From NCBI GenBank assembly GCA_027451445.1, contig DAIDJG010000600.1:1-39892 (forward strand): 39,892 nucleotides of DNA, given 5' to 3'. Origin of the DNA: Singulisphaera sp. GTDB lineage: Bacteria > Planctomycetota > Planctomycetia > Isosphaerales > Isosphaeraceae. The notes under the pieces were generated by a model. The model saw only the letters and a list, made by a program, of their open reading frames with translations. It was not told the DNA's origin and did no database searches. The translations under genes were made by a program, and so were the position numbers. Below, piece after piece: positions 11,303-23,352 of this stretch (positions within the stretch are counted from its first letter, which is position 1; each line of letters begins with the position of its first letter).

Positions 11303-11812
11303 TCAAGCCTTGTACTTGACGACGACGTCGAGGGTGACCGTGTTATTGGTGAAATCTCCGACGCCGGTGCCAGTCAGGTGGCCGGTGGCGCCTGAGAGAG
11401 GGCCGGTGGCGCCTGTGAGTTTACCGGTCTCGTGGAACTTGAAGGTCGTCGCCGAGGTCAACGGCCCTCTGCCGGAATACGAAAAAGTGAGCTCGTCCCC
11501 CAGGGCATCCATGACAGTCCCGGTTCCGTGTGTGAACGCGACCATCCCGCGCTTGCCGTGATGCGTGACCGTCGTCGTGTTGTGGGCGGTCAGCATGATC
11601 GGCCCCAGGGTTGAGGTCGTCCCCTGTTGCTGGATCGTGGTCGCGTAGACCTGCTCCCTCGAGTTGGACGAGCCGAGGACGTTGTCGAACATCCCTGTAA
11701 ACTGTCCATGGAACGTCTGCAGCTTCGCGCCTCCGCTCAACAAGTTGCGGTCCTCAAGTGATTCCCACTGGAGCGTCCGGTGGCGTTTCGTACGGGATTC
11801 TGCACAAAGCAT
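11303..11812 (-). CDS. Small exported protein with LEPR-like N-terminal motif
   Basis: The 169-residue protein begins with basic residues and then WESLEDRNLLSGG (about 16-28), which resembles the LEPR-XLL motif found at the N-terminus of planctomycete surface and secreted proteins. The rest is a Thr/Gly/Ser-rich beta protein. Near the C-terminus a short repeat occurs (LTGATGPLSGATGHLTGTG). A GAGG site lies 8 bases before the ATG at 11812. The function is unknown; a cell-surface or extracellular location is inferred from the motif. A comparable motif starts the giant protein at 16648. Confidence 0.7.
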   Translation of the reverse strand: MLCAESRTKRHRTLQWESLEDRNLLSGGAKLQTFHGQFTGMFDNVLGSSNSREQVYATTIQQQGTTSTLGPIMLTAHNTTTVTHHGKRGMVAFTHGTGTVMDALGDELTFSYSGRGPLTSATTFKFHETGKLTGATGPLSGATGHLTGTGVGDFTNNTVTLDVVVKYKA

Positions 11813-12130: not shown

Positions 12131-12694
12131 ATGGATTCGACTCCGGCCAGTCTGCTCGAGCGCCTCCAAGGGTCCGCAGGCGCCGAGGATTGGGCGCGGT
12201 TCACGGAACTGTACACGCCTGTGCTCCTCGGCTGGGCTCGCGCCGAGGGGCTGCGCGACGAAGACGCGGCTGATCTGGTCCAAGACGTCTTCGTGACGAT
12301 CGTGCGCAAGCTGCCCGAATTCCGCTACGATGCCCAGCGCAGCTTTCGGGCGTGGCTGCGGACCGTGCTGCGAAACCGTCGGCGCGAAACCATACGCCGG
12401 GCCACCGTCCCGGCCACGCACGGTCTCGAGGACGTTGTTCAACCGGATGAGCCCGCCGGCCTCTTCGATCTCGAGCGGCGTGAGCACCAGGAGTGGCTCG
12501 CGGCCCGCGCCCTCGAATTGATGCAGAGCGAGTTTGAGGCGACGACCTGGCGCGCCTGCTGGGAGCAGGTCGTCGAAGGCCGCTCTGTCACCGACGTCGC
12601 GGCCGAGCTCGGCATCACCACGAACGCCGCGTACGTTGCCAAGTCGCGCGTCCTCCGCAGGCTCCGGCACGAACTCCGAGGACTGCTCGACTAA
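12131..12694 (+). CDS. ECF-type RNA polymerase sigma factor
   Basis: The 187-residue protein has the two domains of extracytoplasmic-function sigma factors. Region 2 (about residues 22-90) includes DEDAADLVQDVFVTIV and FRAWLRTVLRN; region 4 (about 128-180) has the helix-turn-helix SVTDVAAELGITTNAAYVAK. The start ATG at 12131 has GAAGAAGG about 10 bases upstream. The linker between domains (RRATVPATHGLEDVV) is of normal length. The next gene encodes an anti-sigma-like motif fused to a kinase, so this sigma factor is probably controlled by it and directs RNA polymerase to promoters that may include its own. Confidence 0.92.
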   Translation: MDSTPASLLERLQGSAGAEDWARFTELYTPVLLGWARAEGLRDEDAADLVQDVFVTIVRKLPEFRYDAQRSFRAWLRTVLRNRRRETIRRATVPATHGLEDVVQPDEPAGLFDLERREHQEWLAARALELMQSEFEATTWRACWEQVVEGRSVTDVAAELGITTNAAYVAKSRVLRRLRHELRGLLD

Positions 12695-12714
12695 ACCCAA
12701 TCCTGGCGCACCAA

Positions 12715-12804
12715 ACCGGCGTTTCTTGCCGGTCGCGCCGAATACTCCGCGTGTTGCGCGCAGGCAACACAGACCGTGCGTTTACCCACGGTTGAAGACT
12801 TTTT
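12715..12804 (+). promoter_or_regulatory. Three tandem hairpins between sigma factor and kinase, last one followed by T-tract
   Basis: Hairpin 1: ACCGGC (12715-12720) with GCCGGT (12728-12733). Hairpin 2: GTGTTGC (12751-12757) with GCAACAC (12764-12770). Hairpin 3: ACCGTG (12773-12778) with CACGGT (12787-12792). All stems are perfect. TTTTT at 12800-12804 follows the third at 7 bases. This could be an attenuator or partial terminator that sets the ratio of sigma factor to kinase. Confidence 0.45.
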
Positions 12805-12907
12805 CTTAAAATGCTGACAAAGACTGTCCTCAGAGCGCATATCAGTCTGCGAGTGCGACGAGCTCGTTGGCCCGTCGCGCGTACTGCTCGTGCTCAGTGA
12901 GCCGCTT

Positions 12908-15900
12908 ATGCCCGCCCTCATGCCGTGTCCTGATGCTCACGAGCTGGAACGTTACCTGCTTGGGCTGACACCTGATCCCGACGCGTCGCGCCTGGACGAC
13001 CACGTTGGTGCCTGCGCACAGTGCGCGAGGGCCGCAGGGACTCTGTCAGGCTCGGACGAGCTCATCGACGCGGTCCGAAATGCGCCGGAGCGGCTTCGGC
13101 AACTGCCCCGTGACGAGGCGGTGCAACAACTGATCGCGAGGCTCAAGCGGTTGGCCTGTGTTGTCGATGACGCCACCGTGCCCTCCTTCTCGTCAGCCGA
13201 GGATATGGAGGCGACGCAGGAATTCTTCGATCTTCTGAGCCCTCAGCAGGCGCCGGGAGAGCTTGGCAGGCTCGGTCCCTACCGAATTCTAAAGATGATC
13301 GGCGCGGGGGGCATGGGCGTAGTCTTCGAGGCCGAGGATCCGCACCTGGAGCGGCGGGTGGCCGTCAAGGCGATGCGGCGGTCGCTCGCGACGAATGCGT
13401 CGGCCCGCGCACGGTTCCTGCGCGAGGCACGCACCGTTGCGGCGCTTGAGCATGATCATATCGTTACCGTGCTCCAGGCCGGAGAGGACCAGGGTGTCCT
13501 TTACCTGGCGATGCCGCTCTTGAAGGGGGAATCACTTGATGATCGTCTGAAGCGCGAGGAACGTCTGGCGCCGGCCGAGGCGCTGCGGATCGCCCGCGAA
13601 GCGGCCGAGGGTCTGGCGGCGGCGCACGAGCGGGGGCTGGTGCACCGCGACATCAAGCCCGGGAACATCTGGCTGGAATCTGTCGGCGGCCGGGTCAAGC
13701 TGCTTGACTTCGGGCTGGCCAAAGCGATGGACGAGGCGGCTGACCTGACGCACCAGGGAACGATCACCGGAACGCCGCAGTACATGAGCCCCGAACAGAC
13801 TCGCGGTGGCGCGGTCATGCCGAGGAGCGACCTGTTCAGCCTGGGCTGCGTGCTCTACCAGATGCTGACGGGCGTCGCGCCGTTCCGGGGACCCGACCCG
13901 ATCGCCACGCTTTTAGCCGTTGCGGCCGAGCGTCCCGTGTCTCCAGAGAAAGTCGTGCCGGGCGTGCCGCGGGCCATCTCGGAGCTGGTGCTGCGGCTCC
14001 TGGCCAAGGCGCCGGAGGATCGGCCCGAATCAGCCCGTGCGGTCGTGGAGGCGATTCGGGTGATCGAGCGCGCTTCGCTGGCCCCCGCTGCGCCCCGACG
14101 GCCTGGCCGCGCCGCGCTTGTTTTCGCCGGGGCGGTGGTGCTCGCTGCGCTCGCCGGCCCGGTGATCTATGTCAACACGGGTAAGGGTAAGATCGTCGTG
14201 CGAGTCGACCCGTCCGACGTGCGCATCACCGTCGACGGCGAGCCGCGCGAGGGTGTCACGATCACCGTCCGGTCGGGAACGCACACGGTGAGGGTCGAGA
14301 AGGAGGGTTTTGCACCCTTCCGCACAGACGTGCGGATCTGGCGCGGATCGCAGACCGAGGTGCCCGCAGTACTGAAGCCGGAAGCACGCCCGCGCGGTGA
14401 CACGGTCGCCGGGCTGCCGAACGCGCCGGCGGGTCAGTACGACGAGCAGTTCCCCGGTTTCGTGCCGGCCCCGGCGCCCATTCCCGGCATCCACCGCTGG
14501 CAGATCGCCGGCCGATTCCCGTGTGGGTGGTTCACCGACCTGGCGTGGAGCCCCGATGGCACCAGGCTCGTCGTTTGCGCGAGCGATCAGGTCGTTCGCG
14601 TTTATGACGGCGAGACCTTGCGGTTGCTCCGCGCGTGGCCGTTTCCCTGGGTGAAGTCGGTGGCCTGGAGTGGTGACGGTCGCTGGATCGCCGCGGGCTC
14701 GTTTACCGGCGCCGTGGGGTTGTGGAGCGCCGACGACGGCTCGCCGCAGCCGGCGCCCGAGGCGCTTCCCGCGGGGGCATTCGTGATGGCGCTGGCGTTC
14801 AGCCCTGACAGTCGCACGCTCGCCGTGGCGTCGCGCTTCCGGAAAGAGCTGCGCCTCTGGGACGTTGTACGCCGGGCGCCGGCACCCGCGCTCGAGCACC
14901 CCGACGTCCTTCAGGATGTGTGCTGGTCTCCGGACGGCAAGTCGCTGGCGACCGCCAGTCTGGATAAGCTCGTCCGCGTCTGGGACGTCGGCAAGGCGGA
15001 AGTCATTCGGACGTTCGAAGGGCACATCGGCCCGGTCCACAGCGTGGCGTTTACCAGCGACGGCCAGCGGGTCGTCTCGGCGGCCGACGATCGCCGCGTC
15101 CGCGTTTGGAACCTGGCGCGCGGCGAAGAGGAGCGGGCCTGGCAGTCCAGTCCGAACTCGGCGACGATCGGAAGTTCTGTCGCCACGAGCAAGGACGGTC
15201 TCACCGCCTATGTCGCGCTGGGCGATCCGGACATCTACGTGCGTTCTCTTGACGACGGCGGCCCGCGCACCGTGCTCGGCGGTCGCACGGGCCACCAGTA
15301 TCAGTTCCCTTTTCCCCATGCGATCCGCTTTCGATTCGACGGCGCGCGACTGGCCTCGATCAACCAGGATGCATCGCTCCGCGTCTGGGACGTGAAGTCC
15401 GGTGCGCTCGTGGGCGCGGTCGAGTCGCACAGCCCTTCCATAAGGGGGTTGGCGAGCGATCCGGCCGGCACGATGCTCGCCGCGGGCACTGTCCGGGGTG
15501 ATGCGGCTCGCGTCTGGAATGCGTCCAACGGCCGTTTACGGATAACGCTGAGCGGGCGGCCGAGCCGTGCCGTGCAAGGAGTCGCGTTCAGCCCCGACGG
15601 GCGCACGATCGCGATCGGGTGTGGCGCGAACCCAATCTACCTGCGCGGCGAGCCAGAACCCAATTCGGTACGGCTGTTCGCCGCCGACGGCACCCCGGGG
15701 CGGACCTTTTCGGACCTGAGCGGTGCGATCACCGCCCTGGCCTTTCTGTCCGACGGGCGGCGACTTGCCACTGGGGGCCAGGGCAGTCCGCTTCAGATCT
15801 GGGATCGGGACACCGGTTCCTTGCTGCGCACAATCCCCACCGATGGGTGGGCCGAGCTCATCGCGTTTGCGCCAGACGGCCGCCGGTTCGCAAAACTGAT

Positions 15901-16582
15901 CTGGCCCAACGGACTTCAGTTCTGGGACGTGGAGTCGGGTGCGGCTGGCCCGGAGCGCCAGGCCGGAGACGGTGAGATCATTGAGGCGGTGGCGTGGCAC
16001 CCGGCCGGCAAGACGATCGCCACAGCGGAGCACGGCAGTGCGGGCGCAGGCATTCGCATTCGCGACGCCGCCCACGGCGCAGTGCTCTTCACCCTGCTAC
16101 TCCGCGAGACCGGGGCGGTCACTTTCGACGGCGACGGCCGCCTCGTGGCTGGCGGCAACGGACACGGAGACGTGCGGGTCTGGGACGCCGCCAACGGAAC
16201 ACCGCTGCTGGGCCTATCGGCCGGCCGTGCAGGCGTGCGCGGCGTCTGCTTCCTCTCCAACCCGCTCCGCATTGCCGCCGGCACCGAGGACGGCGCCGTA
16301 CGTATCTGGGACGCGAAGACCGGCGCGCCCCTCTTCGTATTGCTGGCCCTCTCCGGCGAGCACGCCGCCACTATCGAGCCCGACGGCCGGCTACGGGTCA
16401 CGGACCCGAAGGCCGAGGACGAGCTCATCTATCTCGTGCGCGAGAAGGAGGACGGCCCGGTTCGCATGCTGACACCGGCCGAGTTCCGCGCCGCGGCCGA
16501 ACACGCAAAAACCAGGCGCCCGGCGACGACTCCGCCGGGTGCAGAATCGAACCGTTCCGACCCCGGAAGACCACCGCAGTAA
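12908..16582 (+). CDS. Transmembrane Ser/Thr protein kinase with anti-sigma-like N-terminus, PEGA and WD40 repeats
   Basis: A 1224-residue signalling protein. Residues about 10-45 contain HELERYLLG and DHVGACAQC, the H-x3-C-x2-C zinc motif of anti-sigma factors. The kinase domain (about 121-385) has a glycine loop GAGGMGVV, the VAVKAMR lysine, catalytic HRDIKPGNIW, DFGLAKA and GTPQYMSPEQ, so it should be active. One hydrophobic segment (about 401-422) crosses the membrane. A PEGA-like strand pair (about 428-478) follows, then WD40 repeats (about 528-1175, many ending WDV or WDA) outside the cytoplasm. A GTG at 12890 is in frame, but the ATG at 12908 is preferred. Its position right after the ECF sigma factor makes sigma control by phosphorylation or sequestration likely; this is inferred. 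Confidence 0.93.
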   Translation: MPALMPCPDAHELERYLLGLTPDPDASRLDDHVGACAQCARAAGTLSGSDELIDAVRNAPERLRQLPRDEAVQQLIARLKRLACVVDDATVPSFSSAEDMEATQEFFDLLSPQQAPGELGRLGPYRILKMIGAGGMGVVFEAEDPHLERRVAVKAMRRSLATNASARARFLREARTVAALEHDHIVTVLQAGEDQGVLYLAMPLLKGESLDDRLKREERLAPAEALRIAREAAEGLAAAHERGLVHRDIKPGNIWLESVGGRVKLLDFGLAKAMDEAADLTHQGTITGTPQYMSPEQTRGGAVMPRSDLFSLGCVLYQMLTGVAPFRGPDPIATLLAVAAERPVSPEKVVPGVPRAISELVLRLLAKAPEDRPESARAVVEAIRVIERASLAPAAPRRPGRAALVFAGAVVLAALAGPVIYVNTGKGKIVVRVDPSDVRITVDGEPREGVTITVRSGTHTVRVEKEGFAPFRTDVRIWRGSQTEVPAVLKPEARPRGDTVAGLPNAPAGQYDEQFPGFVPAPAPIPGIHRWQIAGRFPCGWFTDLAWSPDGTRLVVCASDQVVRVYDGETLRLLRAWPFPWVKSVAWSGDGRWIAAGSFTGAVGLWSADDGSPQPAPEALPAGAFVMALAFSPDSRTLAVASRFRKELRLWDVVRRAPAPALEHPDVLQDVCWSPDGKSLATASLDKLVRVWDVGKAEVIRTFEGHIGPVHSVAFTSDGQRVVSAADDRRVRVWNLARGEEERAWQSSPNSATIGSSVATSKDGLTAYVALGDPDIYVRSLDDGGPRTVLGGRTGHQYQFPFPHAIRFRFDGARLASINQDASLRVWDVKSGALVGAVESHSPSIRGLASDPAGTMLAAGTVRGDAARVWNASNGRLRITLSGRPSRAVQGVAFSPDGRTIAIGCGANPIYLRGEPEPNSVRLFAADGTPGRTFSDLSGAITALAFLSDGRRLATGGQGSPLQIWDRDTGSLLRTIPTDGWAELIAFAPDGRRFAKLIWPNGLQFWDVESGAAGPERQAGDGEIIEAVAWHPAGKTIATAEHGSAGAGIRIRDAAHGAVLFTLLLRETGAVTFDGDGRLVAGGNGHGDVRVWDAANGTPLLGLSAGRAGVRGVCFLSNPLRIAAGTEDGAVRIWDAKTGAPLFVLLALSGEHAATIEPDGRLRVTDPKAEDELIYLVREKEDGPVRMLTPAEFRAAAEHAKTRRPATTPPGAESNRSDPGRPPQ

Positions 16583-16647
16583 CGCTCGAAGCACCGAACC
16601 GCTCTCGCTCATCCCTGATCGCCCACGACTCACCGGAGACGACCTCG

Positions 16648-19600
16648 ATGTCGCCACTGTTCGCCGTCCGTAATCGTGCTGTGTCCAGGTCCCGCCGCCG
16701 CGCGCTCGTACTGGAGGCGCTCGAGGTCCGGTGTGTGCCGACAACTTACACCTGGGCGGCCGACGTCGGCGGCGACATCAACAACGCCAGTAACTGGGTC
16801 GACCCCAACGGCAATCACGCCGTACCGAGCGGCGGCGACGCCGCCGTCATCCCTTTCGCTGATATAACAGTCACCGACAGCACGAGCGGCACCATCGGAT
16901 TCGACAACCTCGATTGCGCGGCGACGATCGCCATGGAGCCCAACGCCGAGTACTTCCAGGTTGGCGGCACCTCGACCGTCGCCGGGGTCAACGTCGGACG
17001 CGGCAACCACTTTGAGGTCGTCAGCGGGACGACCACTCTGACCGGACAGTCGATTATCGGCTCCAACGGGTTCCTCCTCCTGGACTCCGGAGCGGTCGTC
17101 GACAACACGGGTACGATCAACTTCTCGGGGGACAGCCCGTCCGGGCAGCTTGGGCTCCAGGGTCCCGCCACGAGCCCCGCAACACTCAACAACACCGGCA
17201 CGCTCATGAAGTCAGGTCTCGGCACGACTGAGGCAAACGCCGTCATCGTCAACGACCTGGGGGGCAAGATGGTCGTCACGGGCGGAGAGCTCGACCTCAA
17301 CGCCGGTGGCACGAGCGAGGGGGGCAACTACACGGTTAGCGCGGGTGCTGACCTGGAAATCTCCGGCGGTCTCGATCGCACGATCAGCGGCACCTTCACC
17401 GGTAGCGGCGGCGGCACGGTCAGCATCCAGACGAACAATCACCATATTCTCGTCGCCGACACCGGCGCGACGTTTGACTTCCCGCCGGGCATGCTTCAGT
17501 TCAAGAATGTGCTTGTCTTCCCGGCGACACCAGGTGCCGTGCCGACGCTCACCAACCTCGGCGACGTGACGATACCGAACCTCCACAACGAAACGTTCCA
17601 GTCGGTCGTGTTCCAGAACGACGGCACATTCACCGCCAATTCGGCCAGTCTCACCGTCGCCGTGAACGCCGTCGTCCACAACACGGGCACGTTCACGTTA
17701 AACGGGTCGTCCACCGTCGGCGGAGATCCTACCGCGATCTTGACCAACACGGGCGCAATCGTCGTCGCAGCCGGCGCGGGCACCTCGATCAACGCCTCCG
17801 ATCCGCTGACGAACTCCGGCTCGCTCGAGGTCCAGTCGGGCACCTTGATGCTGATCACCTCCAACTACGACCCGCTCACCAAGACCCTGAAGGGCGGAAC
17901 CTGGAGGGTCGATAACGGCGCCACGCTCGACTTCAGCAGAACCCCGGTCATCACGGCCAACACGGGGACGATCACGCTCAACGGCCCGAACGCGTCGTTC
18001 GGCGACCTGAGCGCGCTGGCCTCCAACAGCGGCAGCTTGACCCTGAACGCCGGCGCGACCCTCACCACGCCCGGCGGCCTGGCCAACACAGGGACGATCA
18101 CCGTCGGGCCGGGCAGCACGCTGACCGTGAAGGGACAATACAGTCAGACCGCCGGCGCCAACCTGATCGCCCAGATTGGCGGCGACCCCGCCTCCGGTCA
18201 GTTCGGAACGCTCGCCAGCCAGGGGGCTGCGACCCTCGCGGGCGACTTCACCGTCGGCTTCGCCAACGGCTACCTGCCGAGCGCCGGTAACAGCTACACG
18301 ATGATGACCTACCCCAGCGCCACCGGCGCGTTCGACAAGATCGTTCGCACCAGCGCCGGGAGCGGCCAACTCGTCGGCGTCGCGCTCAACCCGACCGACG
18401 TGGTTGTCACCACCAACCTGAACGCGTCCGACCTCGCGATTGCCAGCGCCGACATCAACGCCCCGTCGTCCGCCACGCCCGGGCAGCCGTTCACGATCAG
18501 TTACACGGTCAACAACCTGGCCGCCGCCGCGACCGGCATTTCAAGCTGGGTCGATTCCATTTACGTTTCCCAATCGAGCCAGTTCGATGGCTCGGCGGTC
18601 CTGGTCGGACGCGTACCCCACGACGGTGCCGTCGCGGGTGGGGCGAATTACACCGGCTCGCTGAGCAACGTGGCCTTCCCGGGGGTCTTGCCGGGTACGT
18701 ATCACGTCTTCGTCGAGGTGGACAGCCGCGAGCAGGTCGCCGACCCGTACCGGACGAACAACGTGGCCGCCGCGCCGGGGACGCTCGACGTGACGGTCCC
18801 CGGCCTGACACCCGGCACCCCGGCCTCGGGCACGCTCGCGAGCGGCGGCGATGCGTACTACCAGCTCAACGCCACGGCCGGCGAGACCGTCAGCCTTAGC
18901 GCGACGGGCCCCGTGACCCTCGAGGTCAGCTACGCCGCGATCCCGACCGATGCGGTCCGTGACTTCGCGTCCAGCGGGGTAAGCCCGTCGATCACCATCC
19001 CAGCAACGCTGAACGGCGCTTACTACATCCACGTCCACGCAACGCAAAGCGGCGCGTACACGTTGTCGGCCCAGGCGCTCGGGTTCCAGGCGCTCGGGTT
19101 CACTCCAACGAGCGCGACGACCGCCGCCCCGTTCGTCGCGACGATCAATGGCGCCGGCTTCGCGCCCGGCGCTACGGCCAGCCTGGTCGACTCCGGCGGC
19201 GCAACCCACGCCGCGAGCAGCGTCGAATTCCAAAGCCCGACGACGCTCTTCGCCACCTTCGACCCGTCGACGCTGACCGCCGGTTCCTACCAATTGCAGG
19301 TGACGAATCCGGATGCGAGCAAGTCGACCGCGCCGGGGTCACTCACCCTCGCATCGGGCGCAGGTGCGAAGGCGGGGCAGGTGGCGGTCACCGTGAACGT
19401 TCCCGCCGTCATCCGTCCGGAGCAGGAGGGGCTCGCGACCATCGACTACACGAATACGGGCACGACCGACGTACCCGCCCCCTTGATCGTCCTGAGCAGC
19501 CAGGACGTCCAGTTCCGCATGCCGGGCGAAACCAACTACCAGGGATCGACGCTCATGGTGCTTGGCATCAACCCCGCGGGACCGCTGGGTGTGCTGCCGC

Positions 19601-22600
19601 CCGGCTTCCACGGTGAGTTCTCGGTCCCGTTCCTGCCCTTGACGGCGGGTCTGCACTTGCCCTACACGGTGACCGTTCAGTTGGCCGATCCGACTCAGGC
19701 ATTTCCGTGGTCGCAGTTCGCAAACCTGGGCCAGTCGGGTGGCACGCCGTCGTCGACGTCGTGGTCTTCGATCGTCTCGGCCGCCAGCACCAAGCTGGGG
19801 AGCACCTGGGGCCAGGTGATCAACTCGGTCGACCAGGCGCTGCCGCAGCCCCAGAACTCCGGCGGCCCCGCACCGAGCGGTGCGGCGCTTGATGGCGACT
19901 ACGACTTCCTTCGATTGCTGCGCTACACCACATTTGCGGCAGGCAGCCCGGCGTCGGGACCCGCGGGGGCAGGACCTGCCGTTTCGCCGGCCTCTCTTCC
20001 GGCGGGCGTTTCGGTGGTAGCGACGGTGCCCAAGGTGCTCACCCTCTACCAGGTTGGCGGGGGTAGCGGCCTTGTCGCCGGCGCACCAACCTATCTCGTC
20101 ACTCCCGGCCTCGGCGGCCAGGCCTTCGGCGGTGGCGCGGGGACACGCTACCTCGACCTGGCCAACGCAATCGCCGCGGCCGAGCCCAACGCGAACGTCC
20201 TCTTGCTCGACTGGAGCCCGGAGGCACCTCAGACCTTCTTCGTCGGCGCAGCCGGCCCGTCGGCGAACACCCTCGTGAAAACCGACGGCATCAACCCGAC
20301 GGCCGACGCACTTTACGGCGTCCTCGCCGGACTTCAGGCCCAGGGGCTATTCAACCCGGCCAGCGCCACGTTCATGGGCGAGACCTTCGGCAACGCCGTC
20401 AACGACCGGGTCGCCGCCGAGTTTCGGGGCGCCGGGCTCGGGGTTGTCGATGACGCCATGGTCTTCGATCCCCCGAACGAGATCTCCGGCTACGACCTCC
20501 GCGACCTGGGGGCCAACTTCCAGTATACGTACACGTTCGAGACGTGCCTGATCCTCGATTCGCACCTCAAGCTCGGCCTGGCGCATGCCCAGATCATCTC
20601 GACCTCGGCCACACATGGCCCTCCCGCCCTGAACGACGCGCCCCCGCCCAACTTCACGATCTATGAGGATTTCAGCAGCGAAAAAGACGCCGAGCAGGGC
20701 GTGCTCTGGCTTGCCTCGCGGCTGACGGCGGGGGACGCGAGCTGGCTGACACCTCAGTCGAGTCTCGTCAACCAGCTCGCCCAGGCCGATAACAGCCACT
20801 GGGACGGCTCGGTCGCCTTCGGCACGAACTATGACCCGACGCCGGTCCAGATCCACACGTGCTTCGCGATCGATGGCGGCGGTGACGATCAGGCGCCCGA
20901 TAATGGCGACGACAACGGTGGCGGTGGCGGCAACAGTGCGGGGGGCGGCGGAACCGGCGGCGGCGATAGCGGTGGTGGCGGAAACGTCAACGGTGGTGGT
21001 GGCAACAACGGTCCCTCGCCGGGCACCCCACCGGGCCTCGGAGGATCGGGCGGCTCGTCAGGCGGCGAGCAGAAGTCGCCCAACGACCCCAACGACATCA
21101 CCGGCCCCGCGGGTTTCGGCGCCGCCGGCTTTATCCCACAAGGACAAACCCTCCCATATTCGATCAGCTTCCAGAACGAGCCCACTGCCGATCTCGCGGC
21201 TCAGGTCGTCACCATCACCGAGCAACTCGACCCCAACCTCGACTGGTCGACGTTTCAGCTCGGCGACTTCGGCTTCGGTTCCTACCGTGTCGACGTTCCC
21301 GCTGGTGTGACGAACTATTCAACGCGCATCGATGCGCGTGCCACGGTCGGCCTGTACGTTGACGTCCAGGCCAGCTTCGATTCGGTCACCGGTAGGGCGA
21401 GCTGGACCTTCACTTCGATCGACCCGACCACCGGCGACCAGACCACCGACGTGCTCGCTGGATTCCTCCCGCCCGACACGAGCCCTCCCGCGGGCGAAGG
21501 CTTCGTCAGCTACACGGTTCAACCCAAGGCGTCTGACGCCACCGGCACAACCATCGGCGCCTCGGCCTCGGTGGTCTTCGACACCAACGCCCCCGTGGTC
21601 ACCTCGCCGATCACCAACACGATCGACACCGGCGCGCCGACCAGCAGCGTCGCCACGCTGGCGAGCACCGTCGGCGCCAGCTTCCCCGTGACGTGGTCGG
21701 GCACCGATGACACGGGCGGCTCCGGCGTCGCGTCGTATGACGTGTACGCCTCTGACAACAACGGCCCGTTCACGCTCTGGCAGTCGGCCACCACGCAAAC
21801 CTCGGCAACCTTCAACGGCGCATACGGCCACTCGTATGCGTTTTACTCCGTCGCAACCGACAACGTGGGACACGTCCAGCCCACGCCTGGTGCCCCGCAG
21901 GCCACCACCCAGGTGATCGCAACGCCGTTGCGCGTGACGAGCATCAGCCCGTCGGCCAACTTCCTCACCAGCCTGCCGAACAACCAGGTCGTGGTCACGT
22001 TCAACCGTGCCCTGGCCGGACTTGTACCCAACAAGCCGGACGGGAGCGGAATGACGAGCGCTCCGTTCGCAGTCATGCTGATCCCTTCGGGGCCCGACGG
22101 TCAGGCGACCCAGAAGGCAACCGGCGTCTTCTGGTCGGCACCGACAGGCCAGGACGACGGCGACCTCCCCATTCCCGCCACGGCCGTCTACGCGGTCAAC
22201 GCCGATGGTACGTCGACGATTACGATGACGCCCCACCAGCCTCTCGCGACCGACATCTACCTGATCAGCATTGGAGGCGTTAGCGACCTTTTTGGCGATC
22301 CGCTCTCCACCGATGCCGCGGGCGACCCGGGCCGGGTCTATTCCTCTTTCGACTACCGCCCGTCGACCAATTCGAGCGCACCGAGCGTGACCGGCGTCAC
22401 GGCCGACAACGGAACCGTCCCCATCAACAACAATGCGATTCCCCAGCCCGACACCATTGCCATCCGCTTCAGCAAGCCGATGGACACGTACACCATCAAC
22501 ACCGAAACGGTTCAGCTCTTCGAGAACGGAGTCAACGGCCCGCTTGCGGCCGCCGTCACCTACAGCCCGACCACTCAGTCGGCCTACCTCACGCCGGAAA

Positions 22601-23352
22601 CCGCGCTCAGCCCGGGACACACCTTCTACGTTGCGGTCAACACCGGCGTTACCGACGACCAGAATTTTTCCTCCAACGGTACCCCGCTCGCGGCGCCGTA
22701 TTACACCTCGTTCTCCGTGACGGGCACCGGCGCTGCCGGCAGCGCGGGGACATCGCCGCTGAGGGTGCTGGGAACGACCCCGACCAACGGCATGGTCTGG
22801 CCCAACGCCTTTGGCTACGCGGCCGTCACCTTCAGCGAGGCGATCAACCTCAGCTCGCTGGGCCGGTTTTCGGCGATGCTCATTCCGCACACCGGCGGCG
22901 TGACGACGGGGACCTCGGGCTACGCGGACGTGCCGGTGAACGCCAAGCTCGCGTTCAACCCGAACACGAACCAACTCATCCTCGTGCCCACCGGAATCCT
23001 GCCCAACGGCACAATCTACGCGATCGCGCTGTCGGGCATCGCCGCGGCGAAGAACGCCGACACGCTCTCGGGCACAGCGTACTCGACGTTCCTCTGGAAC
23101 GCCCCTGTGGCGGCGCCGCAGGTCGCGAGCCGGACGAGCGTGGCTGCTGCCGACGTCGTCGTGCCAACGGGGGGAGCGACGCCAGTCGCACCGTCGGGGG
23201 CAGTGAACGCAGTCGTACAGCCGGTTGCGCCGGCGACCCGGACGTTGCTTCGTCCAAAGCAAGCCGTTAGCGCTAGCCGGTTAAACGGCCCTGATGGTCC
23301 GCTTCCGTTGATCGCGCGACGCGCACACAGGGCGAATTTACGTGCGAACTGA
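16648..23352 (+). CDS. Giant multidomain surface protein with lipase-like domain and Ig-like repeats
   Basis: The 2234-residue protein begins with basic residues and VLEALEVRCVPT (about 20-31), a planctomycete LEPR-like export motif. Residues about 33-590 are N/G/T-rich strands of beta-helix type (NTGTITLNG, TNSGSLEVQSG). Then come a CARDB-like domain (about 594-715), a PPC-like domain (about 720-810), an IPT/TIG-like segment (about 818-900), a pancreatic-lipase-like domain (about 1145-1395; NVLLLDWSPEA and MGETFGNAV), a Gly-rich hinge (about 1409-1475), a beta domain (about 1485-1660), an FN3-like unit (about 1660-1750) and three Ig-like Big_5-type units (about 1760-2150). It begins 65 bases after the kinase, so may be co-transcribed. 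No sorting signal is recognised at the C-terminus. The ATG at 16648 is chosen because the motif follows. Confidence 0.85.
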   Translation: MSPLFAVRNRAVSRSRRRALVLEALEVRCVPTTYTWAADVGGDINNASNWVDPNGNHAVPSGGDAAVIPFADITVTDSTSGTIGFDNLDCAATIAMEPNAEYFQVGGTSTVAGVNVGRGNHFEVVSGTTTLTGQSIIGSNGFLLLDSGAVVDNTGTINFSGDSPSGQLGLQGPATSPATLNNTGTLMKSGLGTTEANAVIVNDLGGKMVVTGGELDLNAGGTSEGGNYTVSAGADLEISGGLDRTISGTFTGSGGGTVSIQTNNHHILVADTGATFDFPPGMLQFKNVLVFPATPGAVPTLTNLGDVTIPNLHNETFQSVVFQNDGTFTANSASLTVAVNAVVHNTGTFTLNGSSTVGGDPTAILTNTGAIVVAAGAGTSINASDPLTNSGSLEVQSGTLMLITSNYDPLTKTLKGGTWRVDNGATLDFSRTPVITANTGTITLNGPNASFGDLSALASNSGSLTLNAGATLTTPGGLANTGTITVGPGSTLTVKGQYSQTAGANLIAQIGGDPASGQFGTLASQGAATLAGDFTVGFANGYLPSAGNSYTMMTYPSATGAFDKIVRTSAGSGQLVGVALNPTDVVVTTNLNASDLAIASADINAPSSATPGQPFTISYTVNNLAAAATGISSWVDSIYVSQSSQFDGSAVLVGRVPHDGAVAGGANYTGSLSNVAFPGVLPGTYHVFVEVDSREQVADPYRTNNVAAAPGTLDVTVPGLTPGTPASGTLASGGDAYYQLNATAGETVSLSATGPVTLEVSYAAIPTDAVRDFASSGVSPSITIPATLNGAYYIHVHATQSGAYTLSAQALGFQALGFTPTSATTAAPFVATINGAGFAPGATASLVDSGGATHAASSVEFQSPTTLFATFDPSTLTAGSYQLQVTNPDASKSTAPGSLTLASGAGAKAGQVAVTVNVPAVIRPEQEGLATIDYTNTGTTDVPAPLIVLSSQDVQFRMPGETNYQGSTLMVLGINPAGPLGVLPPGFHGEFSVPFLPLTAGLHLPYTVTVQLADPTQAFPWSQFANLGQSGGTPSSTSWSSIVSAASTKLGSTWGQVINSVDQALPQPQNSGGPAPSGAALDGDYDFLRLLRYTTFAAGSPASGPAGAGPAVSPASLPAGVSVVATVPKVLTLYQVGGGSGLVAGAPTYLVTPGLGGQAFGGGAGTRYLDLANAIAAAEPNANVLLLDWSPEAPQTFFVGAAGPSANTLVKTDGINPTADALYGVLAGLQAQGLFNPASATFMGETFGNAVNDRVAAEFRGAGLGVVDDAMVFDPPNEISGYDLRDLGANFQYTYTFETCLILDSHLKLGLAHAQIISTSATHGPPALNDAPPPNFTIYEDFSSEKDAEQGVLWLASRLTAGDASWLTPQSSLVNQLAQADNSHWDGSVAFGTNYDPTPVQIHTCFAIDGGGDDQAPDNGDDNGGGGGNSAGGGGTGGGDSGGGGNVNGGGGNNGPSPGTPPGLGGSGGSSGGEQKSPNDPNDITGPAGFGAAGFIPQGQTLPYSISFQNEPTADLAAQVVTITEQLDPNLDWSTFQLGDFGFGSYRVDVPAGVTNYSTRIDARATVGLYVDVQASFDSVTGRASWTFTSIDPTTGDQTTDVLAGFLPPDTSPPAGEGFVSYTVQPKASDATGTTIGASASVVFDTNAPVVTSPITNTIDTGAPTSSVATLASTVGASFPVTWSGTDDTGGSGVASYDVYASDNNGPFTLWQSATTQTSATFNGAYGHSYAFYSVATDNVGHVQPTPGAPQATTQVIATPLRVTSISPSANFLTSLPNNQVVVTFNRALAGLVPNKPDGSGMTSAPFAVMLIPSGPDGQATQKATGVFWSAPTGQDDGDLPIPATAVYAVNADGTSTITMTPHQPLATDIYLISIGGVSDLFGDPLSTDAAGDPGRVYSSFDYRPSTNSSAPSVTGVTADNGTVPINNNAIPQPDTIAIRFSKPMDTYTINTETVQLFENGVNGPLAAAVTYSPTTQSAYLTPETALSPGHTFYVAVNTGVTDDQNFSSNGTPLAAPYYTSFSVTGTGAAGSAGTSPLRVLGTTPTNGMVWPNAFGYAAVTFSEAINLSSLGRFSAMLIPHTGGVTTGTSGYADVPVNAKLAFNPNTNQLILVPTGILPNGTIYAIALSGIAAAKNADTLSGTAYSTFLWNAPVAAPQVASRTSVAAADVVVPTGGATPVAPSGAVNAVVQPVAPATRTLLRPKQAVSASRLNGPDGPLPLIARRAHRANLRAN

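Follow-up and report, generated by a model that had tools for sequence, protein, structure and literature searches.

Several described systems resemble parts of the locus considered here. Class I zinc anti-sigma factors (RsiW, RsrA, ChrR and RslA), which are encoded beside an ECF sigma factor, carry the signature H-x3-C-x2-C in a small bundle of helices, of which it spans the second and the third, RsiW being in addition linked to the membrane. In the ECF43 pairs EcfP/PknT and EcfK/PknS an ECF sigma factor is encoded next to a Ser/Thr kinase, and EcfP-type activation requires that the DAED motif be replaced by an uncharged, phosphorylatable stretch, which is STTA in EcfP. The ZAS anti-sigma factors of M. 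tuberculosis let go of their sigma factor once PknB has phosphorylated them (PMC8999054). Reviews consider planctomycete ECF sigma factors having a neighbouring kinase to be phospho-regulated, usually without an anti-sigma factor; ECF59, ECF61, ECF62 and ECF217 are listed as putatively phospho-regulated, differing mechanisms being expected (PMC8999054). Finally, WD40 receptor kinases of Planctomycetota consist of an inner kinase, a membrane segment and an outer WD40 array (PMC11032199).

The window, a stretch of 39,892 nucleotides corresponding to one entire contig of a 10.9 Mb genome of Singulisphaera sp., contains an ECF sigma factor gene followed by a receptor kinase gene. With the class I factors this kinase shares the H-x3-C-x2-C motif and the ECF neighbour, and with RsiW the link to the membrane; the position of the motif over two helices and a relation by sequence profile are putative further likenesses. 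It differs from them in that the domain, whose binding to the sigma factor is predicted here, forms one protein with an intact Ser/Thr kinase and an outer WD40 part. Like the ECF43 pairs, the locus combines an ECF sigma factor and an adjacent Ser/Thr kinase, but the sigma factor keeps D-A-A-D and the kinase carries an anti-sigma-like domain. The resemblance to ECF59, ECF61, ECF62 and ECF217 (a planctomycete ECF with a neighbouring kinase) is one of neighbourhood and not a group assignment. PknB and RshA/RseA (PMC8999054) are similar insofar as a kinase and a zinc anti-sigma factor control an ECF, but they are separate proteins whereas the window has one polypeptide. The WD40 receptor kinases, in turn, have the same inner kinase, membrane segment and outer array; unlike the case of the window kinase, the text of PMC11032199 mentions neither an anti-sigma nor a zinc domain. 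The pair is best seen as a variant of known ECF regulation, and the claim of the initial annotation, that sigma factor, kinase and a giant surface protein form a three-gene sensing unit, is partly supported.

Layout of the locus and architecture of the kinase

The open reading frames of the sigma factor, the kinase and the giant protein are present in the same direction, as had been claimed, and their coordinates were checked:

11303..11812, minus strand: small LExR-type protein, divergent from the sigma gene, with a weak PF07595 match (16.3 bits, cut-off 25.5)
12131..12694, plus strand: ECF sigma factor, 187 aa, region 2.2 being D-A-A-D-L-V-Q-D-V-F
12908..16582, plus strand: receptor kinase, 1224 aa, its start backed by alignment with homologues
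16648..23352, plus strand: giant protein, 2234 aa, with an N-terminal LEALEVR motif, putatively linked to the pair
21445..23037, plus strand: C-terminal block of the giant protein (with DUF7619 and Big_5), common to about 25 paralogues

A gap of 213 bases separates the sigma and kinase genes, and the giant open reading frame begins 65 bases after the kinase stop, which bears out the spacing given initially. No sigma-70-type promoter was found upstream of the sigma, kinase and giant genes, a by-eye comparison of these upstream regions yielded no convincing shared promoter motif, and no terminator-like site was found on the plus strand around the 65-base gap. The assignment of the sigma factor to the ECF type holds, TIGR02937 (ECF) scoring 63 bits, above its cut-off, and Sigma70_r2 46.7 bits.

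Within the kinase gene the following elements were recognised:

12908..13162, plus strand: zinc anti-sigma-like domain (ASD), ~residues 1-85
13001..13024, plus strand: H-x3-C-x2-C motif HVGACAQC, residues 32-39 (H32, C36, C39)
13280..14038, plus strand: protein kinase domain (Pkinase), residues 125-377, with intact catalytic motifs
14102..14179, plus strand: membrane segment by hydropathy, ~residues 399-424
14195..14392, plus strand: PEGA-like stretch, limits approximate, by homology with paralogues C340 and C514
14525..16357, plus strand: WD40 repeats, ~residues 540-1150, predicted to lie outside the cytoplasm from the single membrane segment

The motifs GAGGMG, VAVK, HRDIKPGN and DFG are all present, as in Hanks-type Ser/Thr kinases. 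Thus, of the fusion initially proposed, the zinc motif, the intact kinase motifs, the membrane segment and the WD40 part stand, and the PEGA domain is reduced to a PEGA-like stretch; PEGA scores above the Pfam cut-off only in C340 and C514 and does not appear in the family list of the window kinase. In the genomes of the family other than that of the window no full-length orthologue of the kinase was found at E<=1e-150. Among its relatives the outer part is exchanged (WD40, beta-helix, TPR, CsgG) and the core is constant, a pattern that fits an outer sensor. At loci L112 and L113 the kinase N-termini seem to contain as many as three copies of a Cys-rich zinc-finger unit ahead of the kinase domain.

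Conservation of the pair and nature of the zinc domain

About twelve further ECF/kinase pairs are present in the genome of the window, and related pairs occur in other genomes of the family, the closest being those of G009 and G043. A scan of public genomes with an alignment of the sigma factor yielded 67 loci, mostly planctomycete, from which, after removal of duplicates, 39 sigma/kinase pairs were read. The zinc motif is found in 35 of these 39 planctomycete pairs, those without it including L222 and L236 and, with a single changed residue, L252; it is also present in all 24 ECF-paired kinases compared within the window genome and the family, a set chosen by similarity to the window pair. 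Judging from these comparisons, a sigma factor followed by a zinc-motif kinase is a conserved unit throughout the phylum. A text search of the literature for zf-HC2, kinase and sigma factor returned no paper; the primary ECF-group papers (Jogler 2012, Wiegand 2020, Casas-Pastor 2021) lay outside its reach, so that the fusion may have been described earlier.

The association between motif and sigma factor was quantified on 82 kinases of the window genome, scored for an N-terminal H-x3-C-x2-C and for ECF neighbours. Of the 16 that bear the motif, 12 come directly after an ECF gene of the same orientation, as opposed to 8 of the 66 kinases without it (Fisher p=1.8e-6); among the remaining four motif-bearing kinases, three have an ECF nearby in another arrangement. 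Such a strong association argues against the alternative, which we regard as improbable, that the zinc domain serves structure or oligomerisation and does not bind the sigma factor, the kinase having other substrates and the sigma factor being controlled transcriptionally. In favour of this alternative are the fact that a zinc motif can have a structural role in anti-sigma factors bound to the membrane (PMC7406223) and the existence of C444, a motif-bearing kinase without an ECF nearby.

Several lines of evidence bear on the relation of the domain to anti-sigma factors. When a domain profile built from six N-termini was searched against the PDB, the best matches were all anti-sigma proteins, namely RsiW, DdvA, the 3hug protein (RslA), RsrA and ChrR; with E values of 0.004-0.08 each match is weak, but jointly they are telling for a putative anti-sigma relation. 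The class I signature, located at residues 32-39 beside an ECF gene, is kept in relatives, and zf-HC2, which scores 16.7 bits on the window kinase (below the cut-off of 22.2), exceeds the cut-off in relatives. The structure model (mean pLDDT 62, ~80 around the motif) has helices at residues 10-17, 23-35, 37-48, 50-58 and 68-88, the zinc motif lying at the junction between the second and the third; the best fold match given by Foldseek is RslA (E 1.7), all matches having E above 1 and none being significant. Furthermore, divergence of the sigma factor is correlated with that of the 73-aa domain, both over 49 pairs (r=0.56, 0/2000 permutations; partial r=0.44 with the kinase controlled for) and among eight paralogues of the window genome (3/5000 permutations), an effect that is partly contributed by the shared inheritance of linked genes and that also speaks against a purely structural zinc domain. 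Conservation, motif-ECF association, PDB profile matches and co-divergence together lend good support to the sigma/anti-sigma-kinase half of the original proposal.

Proposed release of the sigma factor versus direct phospho-activation

The window sigma factor keeps both outer acids in D-A-A-D and has no Ser/Thr in the motif; hence, the ECF43/EcfP-type uncharged, phosphorylatable replacement of DAED is absent, and the adjacent Ser/Thr kinase is present. An activation of the EcfP/PknT type, in which the sigma factor would be inactive until directly phosphorylated and the zinc domain would be merely a docking site, is disfavoured by this D-A-A-D, EcfP itself having STTA instead of the charged DAED, and under such a mechanism an anti-sigma-type domain would be unexpected. 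Even though the kinase adjoins the sigma gene, docking would account for the co-divergence as well and the review cited above places the four planctomycete groups among the putatively phospho-regulated ECFs, we consider direct phospho-activation unlikely.

The charge of this motif seems to vary with the kind of kinase. Of 52 sigma factors whose partner kinase bears the zinc motif, 34 have D-A-A-D or D-A-E-D, whereas Ser/Thr is found in the DAED stretch of all eight window-genome ECFs beside motif-less kinases (a small sample, with the motif placed by eye); by this split, two classes of sigma/kinase pairs seem to coexist side by side, one with zinc motif and charged motif, the other with Ser/Thr and no zinc motif. 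ECFs having Ser/Thr in this stretch beside kinases devoid of the zinc motif were seen in G000 at C290, C427, C227, C176, C451, C126 and elsewhere. At L261:9980-12787 a single open reading frame encodes region 2 of a sigma-70 protein together with an outer domain resembling Cache and a Ser/Thr kinase; region 4 is seemingly absent, and the frame could be either a real fusion or an artefact of draft-genome assembly.

The motif-ECF association, the PDB profile matches, the co-divergence and the charged D-A-A-D make release of a sequestered sigma factor the best model, and the pair is probably a membrane signalling module in which this release would be tuned by the fused kinase. Its premises, namely the architecture, the intact catalytic motifs, the phylum-wide pairing, the anti-sigma-like domain and the charged D-A-A-D, are drawn from sequence; sigma binding, zinc, topology, signal and direction of the phosphorylation effect are what we infer from them. 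The N-terminal zinc domain, presumably an anti-sigma domain of class I type, would keep its cognate ECF sigma factor bound at the membrane, and the outer WD40 part would sense either a ligand or partner protein or the state of the envelope. The signal would then alter the kinase; phosphorylation by the kinase, either of the anti-sigma domain or linker within the same protein or of the sigma factor held there, would set the sigma factor free. If an anti-sigma domain indeed sits inside the kinase, many such systems would work by regulated release and not by charging of the sigma factor, and the two mechanistic classes would be separable by sequence (zinc with charged motif, no zinc with Ser/Thr), a distinction that would aid the interpretation of the numerous expanded receptor kinases of planctomycetes.

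The giant protein and surface proteins near sigma/kinase pairs

The giant protein had been presented as exported and as the third member of the unit. Its export is suggested by the LExR-type N-terminal motif (LEALEVR), but the protein has no clear classical signal peptide and no PF07595 match. The only named families in it are DUF7619, Big_5, CARDB and a weak PPC. About 25 paralogues, whose common part consists mainly of the C-terminal 600 residues, are encoded in the window genome, 19 matches occur in the other member of the genus and few in the family; the C-terminal block is mostly confined to the genus and was rejected as a family-wide feature. By eye, residues ~1160-1260 (LLLDWS and GETFGN) are reminiscent of a lipase-like fold in which the usual serine is replaced, a likeness that has no Pfam match.

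A check of the three-gene order in other planctomycete genomes came out negative: no other pair in the window genome, the family or public genomes has a giant as third gene, and the three-gene unit was rejected as a conserved system. This result, the paralogues mostly having neither sigma nor kinase neighbours and the lineage-specific nature of the family suggest that the giant is likely to be an unrelated downstream neighbour, co-transcribed at most by read-through and devoid of a signalling role. Against this reading stand the lack of a terminator-like site around the 65-base gap, the enrichment of sorted surface proteins beside such pairs and the fact that ECF/kinase genes are commoner beside giants than farther off. 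Indeed, with the window excluded, they make up 8 of the 67 genes directly flanking giants as compared with 1 of the 117 at >=3 places away (p=0.0015), three of the eight (window genome) having been recognised via Pfam and the background via a local model; a manual check of the background positions of the window genome, G001 being left out, revealed no further ECF. These neighbours are convergent or divergent with respect to the giants, never arranged as in the window. At G000:C367:33657-34745 a sigma-70-like protein, in which an extra N-terminal HTH accompanies regions 2 and 4, is encoded convergently with a giant paralogue.

Proteins with LExR or PEP-CTERM signals account for 11 of 122 genes beside ECF/kinase pairs vs 5 of 310 at >=3 genes away (p=0.0007); the former value becomes 9/120 (p=0.004) without the window and 8/118 (p=0.01) without the window and a near duplicate, and LExR alone gives 6/117 (p=0.05). 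Since the regular expression was fixed after some loci had been viewed, this enrichment is a lead and not a proof. Surface-sorted proteins of various kinds thus seem modestly enriched beside such pairs, which makes it possible, if rather doubtful, that the giant is a local target of the pair and not a conserved component. The idea that exported genes in general are enriched downstream of the kinase found no support in a crude signal-peptide test (5/16 vs 67/189). Tentatively, one may envisage a planctomycete-wide receptor class whose members unite anti-sigma domain and Ser/Thr kinase in a single membrane protein, have outer sensors that can be exchanged and control an ECF whose nearby targets would often be sorted surface proteins, here the giant.

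Outside the genus, the two closest loci encode, between sigma factor and kinase, at least one apparently exported protein with a PEP-CTERM signal; PEP-CTERM proteins so placed before a zinc-motif kinase were seen at L109:2896-3630 and L110:10061-10273. L256 and L240 have a gene for an LExR-type protein after that of the kinase and co-oriented with it. Two genes downstream of another pair, L207:14215-17352 encodes a WD40 protein in which caspase-like Peptidase_C14 and CHAT match over the same stretch.
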